Positions 4,417-10,430 of a DNA stretch of 64,000 nt are shown one piece after another; the stretch's first letter is position 1; each line of letters starts with the position of its first letter. Below the pieces are notes generated by a model, which saw only the letters and a list, made by a program, of their open reading frames with translations, had not been told where the DNA came from and made no database searches. A program made the translations under genes and the position numbers. The stretch is taken from NCBI GenBank assembly GCA_020348385.1, contig CP070750.1, positions 1,288,738 through 1,352,737 of the forward strand. The letters run 5' to 3'. The DNA comes from Candidatus Aminicenantota bacterium. Lineage in GTDB: Bacteria > Acidobacteriota > Aminicenantia > Aminicenantales > Aminicenantaceae.

Positions 4417-5748
4417 CTATTGGATCTGGTTGGACAAAGTGTTTATTTTTTTGTCGAATTCTGCGTCTCTTGCTCTTAATTTCTCTATTTTCCTTATGCT
4501 GTGGAGAACCGTTGTATGATGTTTTCCACCGAATTTTTTTCCAATCTCAGGAAGGGAAGTTTTGGTCATTTGCTTGGAAAGATACATAGCGATTTGGCGA
4601 GGAAAGGCAATTTTCGGAGAATTATTCTTTGATTTCAGCTGGGATATCTTGATCTTGAATTCGTGGCTGATGGCTTTTTGGATCTTTTCCACCGTGACGA
4701 TCGTCATGGATGAATCCAACAGGGTTTTCAGAGCCTCTTTTGTCAAATCAAGATCGATGGGCTCACCCTTCAGGGAAGAATAAGCGATAACTCTCCTCAA
4801 GTATCCTTCGAGCTCACGGATGTTGGAATGGACTTTATCGGCGATATACAGGGCTACGCTCTCAGGAAGGGAAATCTCTTCCAGCTCTGATTTCTTTTTC
4901 AGAATGGCGATCCTTGTTTCTATATCAGGAGGTTTGAGGTCGGCAATAAGTCCCCACTCAAACCGGGAGCTGAATCTTTCTTCAAGATTGGGTATTTCTT
5001 TGGGAGGACAATCGCTGGATATGACGATTTGTTTCTGGCTGTCATAAAGGTGGTTGAAGGTGTGAAAAAATTCTTCCTTGGTTCTTTCTCTTCCAGAAAG
5101 ATAGTGTATGTCGTCTATCAACAGGACGTCGACACTTCGGTATTTTTGACGAAAATCCAATACCTTCCCGTATTGGAGATGATTGATCAAATCATTCATG
5201 AATTTTTCCGTTGTGATGTACAGGATTTTGAGACCCTGATTGTTATTGAGGATGCTGTGACCAATGGCATTCATCAAGTGGGTTTTTCCCAATCCAGCGC
5301 CGCCGTAAACATACAGAGGATTGTAAGATTTTGCTGGATTATTCACAACGGCAGAGGCGGCCGCGTGGGCGAATTGATTGCATGAACCGACAACGAAGTT
5401 TTCGAATGTGTAGTTGGGATTCAGGTTGGGGTTGAGAAGGCCACCGTGTTTGGAGCGACGCTCATGTGGAGAGCGCCTGATGAATTGATTGGGGGTATCT
5501 TCAAAAATATACTTTATCTCGAAAGATTTACCAAAAAGTTCAATCGAACATTTGTTTATCAGGCTCAGATAATGAAACGAGAGCCAATCCTTAAAATAGG
5601 AATTGGGGACTTTTATGTAGAGACAGTTGCTTTCTTGTCCGATGTAAATTGTCGGTCCGAACCATGTCTCATAGCTATTCCTGTCAATCTCTTGTTTGAC
5701 AGCGTCTTTGATAAGAAGCCAAGGGTTAGAGTTTTGTTTATCTTCCAT
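4417..5748 (-). CDS. dnaA: Chromosomal replication initiator DnaA
   Basis: AAA+ ATPase that binds DnaA boxes and opens the origin. 443 residues: domain I at 1-80 (WLLIKDAVKQEI...TWFGPTIY), a short linker, AAA+ domain III from about 110 with Walker A GGAGLGKTH and Walker B LLIDDIHYL, and DNA-binding domain IV at the C-terminus. The signature reads GGKHHTTVLHS where the common form is GGRDHTTVLHA, so the Arg and Asp are replaced. The start ATG 5748 gives a standard domain I. Its leader holds four DnaA-box-like sites, which suggests autoregulation. Confidence 0.97.
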   Translation of the reverse strand: MEDKQNSNPWLLIKDAVKQEIDRNSYETWFGPTIYIGQESNCLYIKVPNSYFKDWLSFHYLSLINKCSIELFGKSFEIKYIFEDTPNQFIRRSPHERRSKHGGLLNPNLNPNYTFENFVVGSCNQFAHAAASAVVNNPAKSYNPLYVYGGAGLGKTHLMNAIGHSILNNNQGLKILYITTEKFMNDLINHLQYGKVLDFRQKYRSVDVLLIDDIHYLSGRERTKEEFFHTFNHLYDSQKQIVISSDCPPKEIPNLEERFSSRFEWGLIADLKPPDIETRIAILKKKSELEEISLPESVALYIADKVHSNIRELEGYLRRVIAYSSLKGEPIDLDLTKEALKTLLDSSMTIVTVEKIQKAISHEFKIKISQLKSKNNSPKIAFPRQIAMYLSKQMTKTSLPEIGKKFGGKHHTTVLHSIRKIEKLRARDAEFDKKINTLSNQIQ

Positions 5749-5761
5749 GTGATAGCTTTAG

Positions 5762-5826
5762 ATTTCCACAGATATTTCCACATCTGTGGAAAACCTTCAG
5801 ATTTGCTGAATAACTTCTGTGGAGAA
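5762..5826. other. DnaA-box cluster, probable oriC / dnaA autoregulatory region
   Basis: Four TTATNCACA-like nonamers lie upstream of dnaA: ATTTCCACA at 5762-5770 and 5774-5782 on +, TTTTCCACA (5793-5785) and TTCTCCACA (5826-5818) on -. The middle pair forms a near-perfect inverted repeat, TTTCCACA-TC-TGTGGAAA at 5775-5792. All lie in the dnaA leader, between its promoter and its start codon. Position and clustering support an origin. Confidence 0.65.
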
Positions 5827-5835
5827 GGCGCGGAC

Positions 5836-5864
5836 ATCATAGCACTCCCGATTTTCAAATTCAA
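5836..5864 (-). promoter_or_regulatory. Predicted dnaA promoter
   Basis: TTGAAT (5864-5859), exactly 17 nt, then TATGAT (5841-5836) on the - strand. The leader of about 80 nt carries the DnaA-box cluster, so bound DnaA could block its own transcription. Confidence 0.6.
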
Positions 5865-5907
5865 GAAAAAAATGTTTTTTTTTGAAATTTCCCGCGGGGG
5901 AGCAAAG

Positions 5908-8871
5908 CTAGAAATCGAATCCGATCCAGAATTTGAGCTCGTATTTTCCGAAAGACGTAATGCTGAATGGGCTGGAAATATCTACTATTTCTAGCCTTTT
6001 TGCCCAGTCGAAATGCAGCGGAAGCCCGAGGAAGAAAAATTGGAATCCGAATCCATACGACCCGATAGCATCCGCAGCTCTCAATATTGGAATTCCCCGC
6101 TCATCATAGCCAATATCAAAGATCTTAGCAGGATAACCTTTGAGTTTTGCCCGTGTCAAATCAAGAAAGAAAACACCACGAATGGGCCCAATCAGGCCGA
6201 GGATCGTGTTTGCCGCATTCACCAGAGGGATCCGGAGCTCCAGATTTGCGTACCATCCCTCATTTCCCACGATATTGTAGTAATACGATGAACGAACCTG
6301 GTTGTTGCCACCCCAGTAGAATACATAGGGATTCCTTCCCATGCTGGCCATCACATTGAGACGGAAAGCAAAAAGCGTATTTCCACCGATGGGCAGGTAT
6401 TGACGCAGATCAGCCTGAACTGTTGTGTTCCGGATAAAACGGTTGGTCACTGGAATTGTTTGAGAAAGACCAAGCATGAATGTATTTCCCGAATAAGGAC
6501 CATACATTCTGAAATTCGTCGTTTCGCCGATCAGCGAGGCGGAAGCCGTGAGGGCGTTTCCGTTGTAGAAATAGCCGTAGCCCTGATTTTGCTGGCCGCG
6601 CGCCTGATTCATCAAGTAAGGGTCGTAAAAGTCTTCCTCGTAATTGAGGAAGCTGAGGCCCACTTGGGCTCTGTAATACCGATTGAACGGGTAGTAGCCG
6701 GTGAAACTGGCGCCCATCATCGTTCTTGTTGCCATGGCATCTCTGTAGCTAAGCTGGTCATAATAAAGCGGATCCACATAGTTGTAAGGAGTGTAGTAGA
6801 ACATGGTGTACTGAAAGGCCTCGGCAGCAAACTGGAATCTTCTTTTCAGGTTTACATATGAAAAAAGATAAGATCGAAAGCTTCTAACCTGATAAGCGAG
6901 CAATGTGAAATTGTGATCTCCCAAAAGATCGGAGAATGAGAGAGCCGTGCCTCCATAAATTGAGCCGTCGGTAGAAATGATTGCGCCGACCGGAGGCCTG
7001 TTGTTCAGGTAAAGCTTGCCCAATCCTTTGTAGGGTGCAATCTTTTTCTCGTCGATATCCACACTGACGATAGGTTCGAACCTTTCGAATTCCTCATCGT
7101 AATCCATGTCGGCAAATGTCACGGATTCTTCCTTTTGGCCTTCAAATTCGCTCTTGAAAATCTGAAACGCCCCTTTGTTGAAGGAGGAGAAAAGGATCGT
7201 ATCGGATTCATTAGGCATGGGATGCGGGAATAAATTGCCTGTTCTCACATCTGTGTACCGCAAGAGCTCCCCTGTTTCCAGGTTAAGGGAATAAATGTTA
7301 TAGGCCTCTCTTATGTCTCCGGAGAAGTAAAGCTCTTTATCGTCCGGCGAAAAGATCGGCACGATCGTGTTCCCCTTCCCAAAGGTCAACTGTGTTCTTT
7401 TTTTTAGGTTGTCGCTCGGGGAGATGAAAAGCTTATCGAAGGCATCCAAACGGATGGTGTAAGCGATATATTTTCCATCGTGAGATATAACCGGGGCTTT
7501 TTCGAAAAGATCGTTGGAGGTCAGATTGAGAACTTCTCCATTGGCAAGATTGACTTTGAAAATATCATGGATCCCATTCTCGAAGGCCGTGAAAAGAAGC
7601 TCGTTTTTATCGGGAAAAAAACAAGGAGAGGAGGGTTGGTCTTGGTTGATTTTAATATTTTGTACTATTTTCCCTGAAAGGGGATTGACGATGAAAAGAG
7701 AATGTTTTTTTCCTGCTCGTCCGAAAAAGGCGATCCGGTCTCCGTCGGCAGACCAAGCAATATCCCTGCCTTTGGATGGCTCTACGTCAAACCGGATGAA
7801 TTCGTATTTAAGGGTATAGCCTTTGGTAATATTTTTTATCGCCTTGCCGTCTTTCGTGGAGAATAAGATGATGTCGTAATCCAATTCCTTGTAGTTTGCG
7901 AGCAGGGCAGCGACAATATCACCTGAGGGAGATAGCGAAATCGACCAAGCATGATAGTAGGGATTCAAAGGGAATTCAGGTCCGAGTGGAATACTGTAAT
8001 CTTCGGGATTTTCTCGTGTCAGGAAGGGCTTGTATTTTGCGCGGAGATATTTTTTGAACTCAAAGCCGAATTCTTTGACAGGCGTGTCGAAAGCTCTGCG
8101 GATGGGATTCTGATTCCCGATTAGGGGTGAGTTCTTCATGGAATGCCAGAAATCTCGGATTCCGTTTTTGCCATATTTGTGTTCGATAAAATCAAACAGG
8201 GCATGACCGAAATCGTAATCTGGCACCCGTGGAAGCGGATAACGGGAGTAGAGGTGGCCATTCCCGACGAGATCAGGAATACGATCATTAAGGGCGGCAT
8301 CTCGGACAATCATGGCTGACCAGGGTGCCCAAGTCCGGGTGTTGTATTCGCAGAAGCCTTCGAATATCCATCCGGGGGGCTGGGACAAAGCGTACAGTAC
8401 CCCTCCTGGAGATCCCCAAAGGAGGTCATACTCGAAAACATGGGTCACTTCGTGCTCGATGAGGTTATGGATTTCATCGATGGGCATATCTCCCTGAATC
8501 GCGATTCGGTACAGGAGAGGTTCTGCCACACCGAGAACCCCCTCCGGGAGTTGAAACAAATTGGTCTGGTAGAATTCCGTTGAGGTTCGGTAATAAAGGA
8601 GAGGAACGGAGGCGGAAAGTTGGTGTTTGATCTCCTCGCTGATGGATTTGTAAGCGCTCTCTGCGAGGTCGGCGATTTTTTTAAGGTCGCGAGTGTCATC
8701 CCCATAGTAAAAAATGTCGAAGTGCTCGGTTTTATACACCTTCCAGTCAAACTTTGTGTAGAGAACTTTGTTTTTTCCGTAATACGGAAAATAGATAATT
8801 TGAGAAAAACTCAAATTAGCGCCGATTAAAAATAGGGAAAAAAGGAAAAAGCATTTTTTGAAAACTCTCAT
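5908..8871 (-). CDS. Secreted zinc metallopeptidase-like / TolB-type propeller / outer-membrane barrel protein
   Basis: 987 residues. Start ATG 8871 has a strong AAGGAGAA site and gives a signal peptide (1-24, ending LSFSQ). Residues 35-220 resemble a gluzincin-type peptidase: HEVTH at about 140-144 and a downstream GWIFEGFCEY that could supply the third zinc ligand. Residues about 300-600 hold repeated DxxxxxF(S/T)...DGK-type strands as in TolB/WD40-like propellers. The last 330 residues look like a surface-antigen (BamA/D15-type) barrel rich in alternating aromatic strands. It follows two lipoprotein genes on the same strand. Substrate and role are unknown; it could act in outer-membrane assembly or quality control. 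Confidence 0.8.
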   Translation of the reverse strand: MRVFKKCFFLFSLFLIGANLSFSQIIYFPYYGKNKVLYTKFDWKVYKTEHFDIFYYGDDTRDLKKIADLAESAYKSISEEIKHQLSASVPLLYYRTSTEFYQTNLFQLPEGVLGVAEPLLYRIAIQGDMPIDEIHNLIEHEVTHVFEYDLLWGSPGGVLYALSQPPGWIFEGFCEYNTRTWAPWSAMIVRDAALNDRIPDLVGNGHLYSRYPLPRVPDYDFGHALFDFIEHKYGKNGIRDFWHSMKNSPLIGNQNPIRRAFDTPVKEFGFEFKKYLRAKYKPFLTRENPEDYSIPLGPEFPLNPYYHAWSISLSPSGDIVAALLANYKELDYDIILFSTKDGKAIKNITKGYTLKYEFIRFDVEPSKGRDIAWSADGDRIAFFGRAGKKHSLFIVNPLSGKIVQNIKINQDQPSSPCFFPDKNELLFTAFENGIHDIFKVNLANGEVLNLTSNDLFEKAPVISHDGKYIAYTIRLDAFDKLFISPSDNLKKRTQLTFGKGNTIVPIFSPDDKELYFSGDIREAYNIYSLNLETGELLRYTDVRTGNLFPHPMPNESDTILFSSFNKGAFQIFKSEFEGQKEESVTFADMDYDEEFERFEPIVSVDIDEKKIAPYKGLGKLYLNNRPPVGAIISTDGSIYGGTALSFSDLLGDHNFTLLAYQVRSFRSYLFSYVNLKRRFQFAAEAFQYTMFYYTPYNYVDPLYYDQLSYRDAMATRTMMGASFTGYYPFNRYYRAQVGLSFLNYEEDFYDPYLMNQARGQQNQGYGYFYNGNALTASASLIGETTNFRMYGPYSGNTFMLGLSQTIPVTNRFIRNTTVQADLRQYLPIGGNTLFAFRLNVMASMGRNPYVFYWGGNNQVRSSYYYNIVGNEGWYANLELRIPLVNAANTILGLIGPIRGVFFLDLTRAKLKGYPAKIFDIGYDERGIPILRAADAIGSYGFGFQFFFLGLPLHFDWAKRLEIVDISSPFSITSFGKYELKFWIGFDF

Positions 8872-8887
8872 GTTTTCTCCTTGCTGT

Positions 8888-9562
8888 TTACTTGATAAGA
8901 TATCTTTCTTGGATTTGCTCTCCGCCAACAATCTGGCGAAAGAGTTTGTCTCTTATGTTGATCATCATGTCATAAAAGGCAAAATAGGCGGTTTGGTTCG
9001 GGTTTTTATACGCCTTGCTCTCCTTAAAGGTTCTCTTGTAGAGGGCCTCTCCTGTCTTCCTGTCGATGAGATAGAGATCAAGAGAAAGGGAGTAAAACCT
9101 GCGCTCCTCGATACGGGATTCTTCAGGGAAGGGCTCTTCGAACCGTCTTTTACTCGCAGACTTGATCGCTTTCCGGATTTCTTCTGTGTATTCCAGGCTC
9201 CCCGTGAAAAAAATGATTCCGTTTTTGTCTGGCAAGACTTTCTGCCAGAATGTTTTATCCTGGAAGGCCTCTTCGTTCTGCAGCGCAACTTCTGTGGACG
9301 AGATGTTGTTTTTTATTTTTTGCTCAAACTCTATAGTGAAATATTCTGTCAATTCTTTGTTGATATTAAAATCCTTGGCCTCTTCCTTCACCAGAAAATT
9401 CGTGATAGCGATCTCTTCATAATCGTCAAGGTTTAGCGAGGGTTTTCGCGGCATCTCGATTCTCACCCGTACGTGTTCTCCCGTGCCGCAGGAAAGAAGA
9501 AACAAAAGGCAGATAAATAAAATGAAGCTATTGCTTTTTCTTTTTTTTATCTTTGTTTTCAT
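8888..9562 (-). CDS. Hypothetical lipoprotein
   Basis: 224 residues with a basic start (MKTKIKKRKSN), a hydrophobic stretch and the lipobox LLFLLSC, so it is probably lipid-anchored in the envelope. The rest is hydrophilic with mixed strand/helix character. I recognise no family. A segment IIFFTGSLEYTEE followed by LSLDLYLIDRKTGEALYK is reminiscent of envelope proteins that assemble from small alpha/beta domains, but no assignment is made. ATG 9562 is chosen for the signal peptide; an ATG at 9571 is also possible. It overlaps the upstream TPR gene by 35 nt and ends 17 nt before the metallopeptidase/barrel gene, so the three are very likely one operon. Confidence 0.75.
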   Translation of the reverse strand: MKTKIKKRKSNSFILFICLLFLLSCGTGEHVRVRIEMPRKPSLNLDDYEEIAITNFLVKEEAKDFNINKELTEYFTIEFEQKIKNNISSTEVALQNEEAFQDKTFWQKVLPDKNGIIFFTGSLEYTEEIRKAIKSASKRRFEEPFPEESRIEERRFYSLSLDLYLIDRKTGEALYKRTFKESKAYKNPNQTAYFAFYDMMINIRDKLFRQIVGGEQIQERYLIK

Positions 9563-9914
9563 CTTCCTCATCTGTGGCGCCTTCTTCCATACGCCGTTTG
9601 AATTTTTCATAGTTGGATTGGATGTATTCGTTTTTAGGATTCAGTTTGATTGCAGCCTCATATTCTTTTCTCGCTTCCTCCCAGAGCCCTTTTTTTTCGT
9701 ATGCCACAGCTAGGTTGTTATGAGCGGAAGAGGACTCCGGCTCGAGCACAACAGCTTTTTTCCACCGGAAAATGGCTTCATCCCAAAGATCGCGTTGCGC
9801 CGCAAGGACTCCGAAATGAAGCTGGGACTGCGGAGGGGGTGGCGAACAGCGGGCGAATAGCATAAGAAAAAGAAAAGATAACAGAAGCAAGAATGATAAA
9901 GTTTTTTTATCCAT
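9528..9914 (-). CDS. Small TPR-repeat lipoprotein
   Basis: 128 residues from ATG 9914, preceded by GAGAGAG; the ATG at 9923 lacks a comparable site. The N-terminus is a lipoprotein signal with lipobox LMLFARC. Residues 40-105 contain about two TPR units (AIFRWKKAVVLEPESSSAHNN and AVAYEKKGLWEEARKEYEAA), a protein-docking scaffold. The tail is a run of charged residues (EDENKDKKKKK). It is the first gene of the operon with the lipoprotein and the metallopeptidase/barrel protein, so it may present partners to them. Confidence 0.8.
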   Translation of the reverse strand: MDKKTLSFLLLLSFLFLMLFARCSPPPPQSQLHFGVLAAQRDLWDEAIFRWKKAVVLEPESSSAHNNLAVAYEKKGLWEEARKEYEAAIKLNPKNEYIQSNYEKFKRRMEEGATDEEDENKDKKKKKQ

Positions 9915-9937
9915 CTCTCTCATTAACTAAGATACTT

Positions 9938-9959
9938 GTTTTGCAAATGTTTTGCAAAT
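9938..9959. repeat. 11-bp tandem direct repeat in the TPR-operon leader
   Basis: Two perfect adjoining copies of GTTTTGCAAAT (9938-9948, 9949-9959). The second runs into the palindrome GCAAATTTGC (9954-9963). An 11-bp period places both copies on the same DNA face, just downstream of the -10, as expected for an operator. Confidence 0.6.
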
Positions 9960-9971
9960 TTGCTTACAGTG

Positions 9972-9980
9972 ATTATAACA
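9972..9980 (-). promoter_or_regulatory. Extended -10 promoter for the TPR/lipoprotein/peptidase operon
   Basis: The - strand reads TGTTATAAT, a perfect -10 hexamer with the upstream TG of extended -10 promoters. No good -35 is seen. It lies about 58 nt upstream of the TPR-gene start. Confidence 0.55.
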
Positions 9981-10166
9981 GATGAAAAATATTAGCAATA
10001 TTTGTACCAAAAACACCCTGGGAAGAAGATCTTATTCTTCTGGGGAAAAGTGCGCATAAAAGAGGACATGTGTTTTATGGACGTCAATTATTGGCATGGA
10101 GGCACTGTTAACAGAAAAAATCTTTACAATCGAGCAAGGCCGGGCATAAAGAAAACATCAAATGGG

Positions 10167-10238: not shown

Positions 10239-10430
10239 ATGCCTAAAGCTTGCGAAATTTGTGGAAAGGGCCCAGTATTTGGGCAAAGTCTTAGTCATTC
10301 ACATAAGGCTTCCAAGAAAAAATGGAAGCCAAACCTGCAGAAGGTCAAAGCCCAAACACCAGCAGGGACAAAACGCATATGGGTTTGCACGAGATGCCTT
10401 CGATCCGGGAAAGTCACAAAGGCAGCCTAG
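10239..10430 (+). CDS. rpmB: 50S ribosomal protein bL28
   Basis: 63 residues, a component of the large subunit. It begins MPKACEICGKGP and contains the family core LSHSHKASKKKWKPNLQ. Two CxxC pairs (CEIC and CTRC) mark the zinc-binding form. It overlaps the rel stop codon tail-to-tail by 4 nt, an unusually tight convergent join. Confidence 0.97.
   Translation: MPKACEICGKGPVFGQSLSHSHKASKKKWKPNLQKVKAQTPAGTKRIWVCTRCLRSGKVTKAA

Follow-up and report, generated by a model that had tools for sequence, protein, structure and literature searches.

In a 64,000-nucleotide stretch of a Candidatus Aminicenantes genome (G000:C1:1288738-1352737, hereafter the window, to whose positions the coordinates below refer), we investigated three neighbouring genes, here called T, P and A. 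We propose, with a probability of about 0.45, that A is a zinc peptidase embedded in the outer membrane (OM) on an Omp85 scaffold and facing the periplasm, where it would be served by T and P in the assembly, processing or quality control of surface proteins. By open reading frame analysis the three genes are co-directional and almost abutting on the minus strand, T and P overlapping and P and A being separated by 16 nt, which bears out the tight linkage claimed in an earlier note on this DNA.

The same note had placed a HEVTH gluzincin-like domain, a TolB-type propeller and a barrel in the one chain of A, and both profiles and a confident structural model supported this. A Pfam scan of the window's A alone returned only the PD40 propeller (E 1.6e-10), the threshold for Omp85 (PF01103) not being reached. 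When 36 members of the A family were scanned singly, PD40 was found in 36/36, Peptidase_MA_2 in 24/36 (best 9e-8) and PF01103 in 10/36. The AlphaFold2 model of the 987-aa protein (mean predicted local distance difference test score, pLDDT, 84.1; predicted template modelling score, pTM, 0.80) showed an N-terminal domain made of helices, a propeller of six blades with about 25 strands, and a barrel of 15-16 long strands, and thus the three-part layout, with a BamA-like Omp85 barrel. A Foldseek search of this model against the PDB matched TolB (E 1.7e-11) and the BamA barrel 6fsu (E 2e-9). Moreover, the propeller matched solved TolB chains with an E value of 1e-12 from the single sequence and 4e-30 from a profile, and the BamA equivalog TIGR03303 matched a distant relative (L129) through its final residue (E 3.5e-6). 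Neither a POTRA domain nor the M48 family was found in Pfam scans of the window's A or of the 36 family members, and no Pfam match to TolB_N was obtained in the window's A.

The A family carries the signature of the gluzincin/peptidase MA clan, HExxH with a third Glu. H140, E141, H144 and E171 were all kept in 68/68 Acidobacteriota homologues, including those of a paralogue group, B (the row for L052, in a wrong reading frame, was excluded from this count); loss of the predicted zinc residues in relatives, which would have counted against the earlier note, was thus not seen. Because this motif is complete in all 68 homologues, catalysis by A is probably under selection. The Arg of barrel loop 6 was likewise kept in 68/68; the loop reads RGY or RGF in B and in most A proteins from other Acidobacteriota, whereas drift has led to RS in most of those from Aminicenantales. 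The paralogue B of this genome (G000:C1:1878265-1881330; L060:5569-8661) is about 27% identical to A and has the same three-domain plan and a classic VRGY loop. No T-P pair lies alongside it, and it is present in most relatives of the order.

We observed A in 36 relatives at 51-87% identity, with the gene order T-P-A-dnaA-dnaN shared, and because of this identity and order the genes appear conserved far beyond chance. This order was found in every Aminicenantales locus that has A and sufficient flanking DNA. Among 199 Acidobacteriota genomes, 99 gave strong matches to the A family (A or B). P was present in 88 genomes, every one of them among these 99 and none among the 100 lacking the A family (Fisher p about 1e-44, a value that ignores shared ancestry). 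In 69/88 of the P-bearing genomes, P is the gene immediately upstream of A. Outside Aminicenantia, T-P-A was found at other sites, often by dprA-topA (genes named by eye). In a tree of 65 proteins, a clade of T-P-linked A proteins was separated from a B clade without T-P with 100% support in the Shimodaira-Hasegawa-like approximate likelihood ratio test.

T contains TPR repeats by Pfam (E 1.5e-13) and weakly resembles PilW and NlpI. Its lipobox reads FARC, with an atypical Arg at -1 in the window's genus, and the lipobox Cys is kept in >90% of relatives; in P, the lipobox Cys41 is invariant across 36 Aminicenantales rows. The description of both as lipoproteins thus held within Aminicenantales, T having both TPR repeats and a lipobox Cys, with the reservation of the Arg in T, and did not extend to several distant T and P proteins, which have plain signal peptides without a lipobox. 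P could not be identified from sequence: no significant Pfam, NCBIfam or PDB sequence match was obtained, although a weak FlgT_M match was seen in 19/36 family members. Fold comparison alone helped. The AlphaFold2 model of P (pLDDT 83) matched FlgT, HpaA, CsgG, PelC and LptE in Foldseek with E values down to 1.6e-7, but with template modelling scores of mostly 0.3-0.6 and without sequence support. A fold like that of CsgG, PelC, LptE and FlgT, which serve OM barrels or rings, would speak for the proposed role of P. Moreover, in two families (L122, L123) a single open reading frame encodes T and P as a fusion.

Upstream of T we found a sigma-54 promoter that had escaped the earlier note. Of 41 non-redundant Aminicenantales loci, 35 carry the site in its strict form (TGGYAY-N5-TTGC) upstream of T. 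Across 20 long loci, which amount to 588 kb when both strands are counted, 16 strict sites were found, and each of them was the T promoter. The element appeared in 0.2% of first-order shuffles, and rpoN is present in the genome. The T site fits the consensus TGGCAC-N5-TTGC(A/T), with GG-N10-GC, as given in PMC12316311, and sigma-54 has been tied to the bacterial exterior (PMC3162934). We infer that T-P-A is transcribed from this conserved, sigma-54-dependent promoter. The extended -10 and the 11-bp repeat operator named by the earlier note exist as letters, but both are absent in L009, whose A is 87% identical, and in five other relatives checked, and we rejected them as regulatory elements. 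In many relatives TTGACG-N17-TANNTT lies downstream of the sigma-54 site, and the repeat of the window takes its place. Six exact sigma-54 sites occur in the genome, the T promoter among them. Sigma-54 is used at pilin genes via PilR. In keeping with this use, one exact site (L160:2001-2637) precedes a pilin gene that comes immediately after a response-regulator gene; it served as a positive control for the pattern. The other four lie at G000:C1 580096, 2966390, 3507787 and 3642924; two of these precede genes whose products, judged by eye, are a small secreted or OM protein and a large one resembling a TonB-dependent receptor.

In known Omp85 proteins the N-terminus points into the periplasm. 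Because of this orientation, and because the enzyme domain of PlpD was shown to remain in that compartment (PMC11116518), A probably carries its peptidase and propeller beneath the barrel, on the periplasmic side. The barrel would thus hold in the periplasm both the TolB-like propeller and a zinc peptidase of gluzincin type, while T, as a TPR adaptor, and P, as an envelope protein of the CsgG/LptE fold, would form a module that scaffolds A or delivers clients to it, much as NlpI does for the protease Prc and LptE for LptD. Most likely, such a machine would cleave or clear OM and surface proteins during their assembly or export, so that an Omp85 scaffold would contain its own BepA-like processing or quality control, with the level of the machine set by the sigma-54-dependent promoter. 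BepA acts on LptD at BamA (PMC8423444), and NlpI and LbcA feed envelope proteases (PMC5686067, PMC8764530); because of these analogies and the complete conservation of the motif, we favour proteolytic maturation or quality control with T-P as the adaptor. More tentatively, T-P-A may be a phylum-specific OM machine, with Omp85 barrel, TolB-like propeller and zinc peptidase as one chain beside an adaptor pair, that acts as a peptidase-gated, sigma-54-switched channel for assembly, export or quality control alongside BAM and TAM.

The barrel might instead expose its two N-terminal domains, peptidase and propeller, to the outside of the cell, as in the old type Vd model of PlpD, and A would then be a nutrient-scavenging or matrix protease. 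PlpD also joins an N-terminal enzyme to an Omp85 barrel, uncultured sediment heterotrophs could presumably use an outer protease, and family members gave weak profile matches to Peptidase_M9 collagenase and BSP and also to flagellinolysin. However, the periplasmic location of the PlpD enzyme domain (PMC11116518) and the orientation of Omp85 N-termini argue against display, which also fits less well with the fact that A is constantly paired with P, a protein resembling in fold OM lipoproteins that face the periplasm, and we consider it unlikely.

A could also be a specialised insertase or secretion pore, BamA- or TpsB-like, for one class of clients, in which the HExxH domain trims exported clients or only binds. 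The Omp85 barrel with its invariant loop-6 Arg and the LptE-like P would suit this role, and the combination of propeller and barrel resembles a BamA-BamB fusion, an idea put forward for WD40-Omp85 proteins in the section that Heinz and Lithgow devote to them (PMC4104836). However, no POTRA domain was found, no linked client gene was seen in the inspected loci, and the complete conservation of the catalytic residues favours catalysis, so that this role too seems improbable. A as the cell's BamA or TolB was ruled out: a canonical BamA (at a skp-fabZ-lpxA locus), TamA and stand-alone TolB-like genes are present in the same genome, and because of them A is not the main assembly machine.

These separate genes weigh against the proposed peptidase machine, as do several exceptions to the linkage. 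In one inner clade of the A tree, A and T-P lie at separate sites. In such lineages a T-P pair without A stands upstream of rplU-rpmA-obg, as in the loci L132, L135, L136, L137 and L138 of another Acidobacteriota lineage, with A elsewhere in the genome. In family f6 (L139 = G047, L140 = G041), T-P remains beside dnaA, A has been cleanly lost between P and dnaA, and the sigma-54 site is also absent. The whole system is missing from about half of the sampled Acidobacteriota, and the lipid anchor is not universal in the phylum. Because f6 keeps T-P without A and one inner clade separates them, a T-P-A complex is not obligatory. The joint conservation of the trio stood for the Aminicenantales loci and for the P-A adjacency across the phylum, with the reservation that T-P can occur apart from A. 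The gene after T-P in genome G220 encodes an 809-823-aa secreted protein (L133:5658-8129, L134:2566-4995), perhaps an alternative partner to A. T-P might also be an independent machine, acting for instance on peptidoglycan, pili or polysaccharides, with A an unrelated neighbour held by operon inertia near the origin. This would accord with T-P lacking an adjacent A beside rplU-obg, beside the other large gene of G220 and beside dnaA in f6, and with the resemblances of T to PilW/NlpI and of P to PelC/FlgT/CsgG, but is the least probable explanation: P-A adjacency recurs at different chromosomal sites (dnaA in the class, dprA/topA elsewhere) and co-occurrence is phylum-wide (88/99 versus 0/100), for which inertia at a single site cannot account.

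Table 1. Features of the T-P-A locus, in window positions
Feature	Position	Strand	Remarks
Gene T	9528-9914	-	128 aa; small TPR protein, probable lipoprotein
Gene P	8888-9610	-	240 aa from listed start; likely start about 9559; CsgG/PelC/LptE/FlgT-like fold
Gene A	5908-8871	-	987 aa; signal peptide, gluzincin-like peptidase, TolB-type propeller, Omp85 barrel
Peptidase MA-like domain	8002-8781	-	about residues 31-290; Peptidase_MA_2 in 24/36, helical domain in model
Six-bladed TolB-like propeller	7102-7974	-	about residues 300-590; PD40, TolB chains, model
Omp85-type barrel, C-terminal Phe	5911-7014	-	about residues 620-987; Foldseek, strands, PF01103 in relatives
HEVTH zinc/catalytic motif	8440-8454	-	residues 140-144
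Glu171 of WxxEG (WIFEG)	8359-8361	-	predicted third zinc ligand; 68/68 homologues
Loop-6 motif GGNNQVRS	6289-6312	-	Omp85 VRGF/Y position; Arg in 68/68
Sigma-54 -24/-12 promoter TTGGTACAAATATTGCT	9994-10010	-	conserved upstream of T; unnoticed in the earlier note
11-bp tandem repeat TTTGCAAAACA x2	9937-9958	-	only exact 11-bp tandem duplication of the window
Extended -10 TGTTATAAT	9972-9980		present as letters
dnaA	4417-5748	-	directly downstream of the trio, then dnaN; context only, outside the proposed machine

The trio adjoins a probable replication origin, because the GC skew switches sign near 4 kb of the window and three TTTCCACA boxes lie in the gap between A and dnaA (5748-5908), which is a probable oriC. 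A search for RNA elements around T-P-A found none. On the plus strand, at 10239-10430, a divergent gene was read by eye as that of ribosomal protein bL28 (rpmB); in relatives, TTGTTA-N17-TATAAT is directed at an rpmB-like gene, upstream of the T promoter.

The closest described kind of A is the uncharacterised WD40-Omp85 subfamily, defined by Heinz and Lithgow in 2014, in the part of their survey concerned with it, by a TolB-like propeller and no POTRA (PMC4104836). A shares these features, with its propeller N-terminal to the Omp85 barrel, and differs in its N-terminal gluzincin domain, its T-P partners and its sigma-54 promoter, all three of which appear undescribed. The text of Heinz and Lithgow never mentions 'peptidase', and its WD40-Omp85 section names no partner genes (PMC4104836). 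We found no paper, Acidobacteria included, on a peptidase-propeller-Omp85 protein or on T-P in the open-access literature. PF00149 is a family that we take to be one of phosphoesterases, not of HExxH proteins. It is the basis of a separate 'Metallo' class in the same survey (PMC4104836). WD40-Omp85 proteins were again named intriguing targets in 2024 (PMC11116518).

WD40-Omp85 is an uncharacterised branch, listed since 2014, of the superfamily that builds outer membranes. With a probable catalytic activity, two likely partners, a conserved promoter and many gene neighbourhoods, its function is now directly testable. If the peptidase is active while mounted on the barrel scaffold, proteolysis and OM assembly would be joined in one molecule; to our knowledge, they are otherwise known only as separate proteins (BepA and BAM). 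T-P-A has the look of a machine, so far unstudied, by which the cell surface is built or policed.

Among other known systems, A belongs with the Omp85 superfamily and its 16-strand barrels, having 15-16 long barrel strands in the model and the loop-6 Arg, and stands outside the POTRA-bearing BamA/TamA/PlpD proteins, because POTRA is absent from its Pfam scans. Like A, PlpD and the patatin-Omp85 proteins (PMC11116518) fuse an enzyme domain to an Omp85 barrel, but that enzyme is a patatin lipase, accompanied by POTRA, without a propeller or T-P partners. Compared with TolB of the Tol-Pal system, the propeller of A is alike in sequence and fold, whereas A scores 83.6 bits against the TolB equivalog, far under the curated cut-off of 343, gave no TolB_N match and is separate from a stand-alone TolB-like gene. 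CsgG, PelC, LptE and FlgT resemble P in fold by Foldseek, with no significant sequence match. As proposed for T-P, NlpI-Prc (PMC5686067) and LbcA-CtpA (PMC8764530) use an OM lipoprotein adaptor, with TPR in NlpI, for an envelope protease; however, those proteases are serine C-terminal processing enzymes and have no barrel. BepA with LptD/BAM (PMC8423444), like T-P-A, combines an HExxH metallopeptidase at OM barrel assembly with a TPR element, but BepA, an M48 peptidase, is soluble and includes a TPR domain in its own chain, whereas T-P-A has its peptidase in one chain with the barrel and its TPR element on a separate protein.

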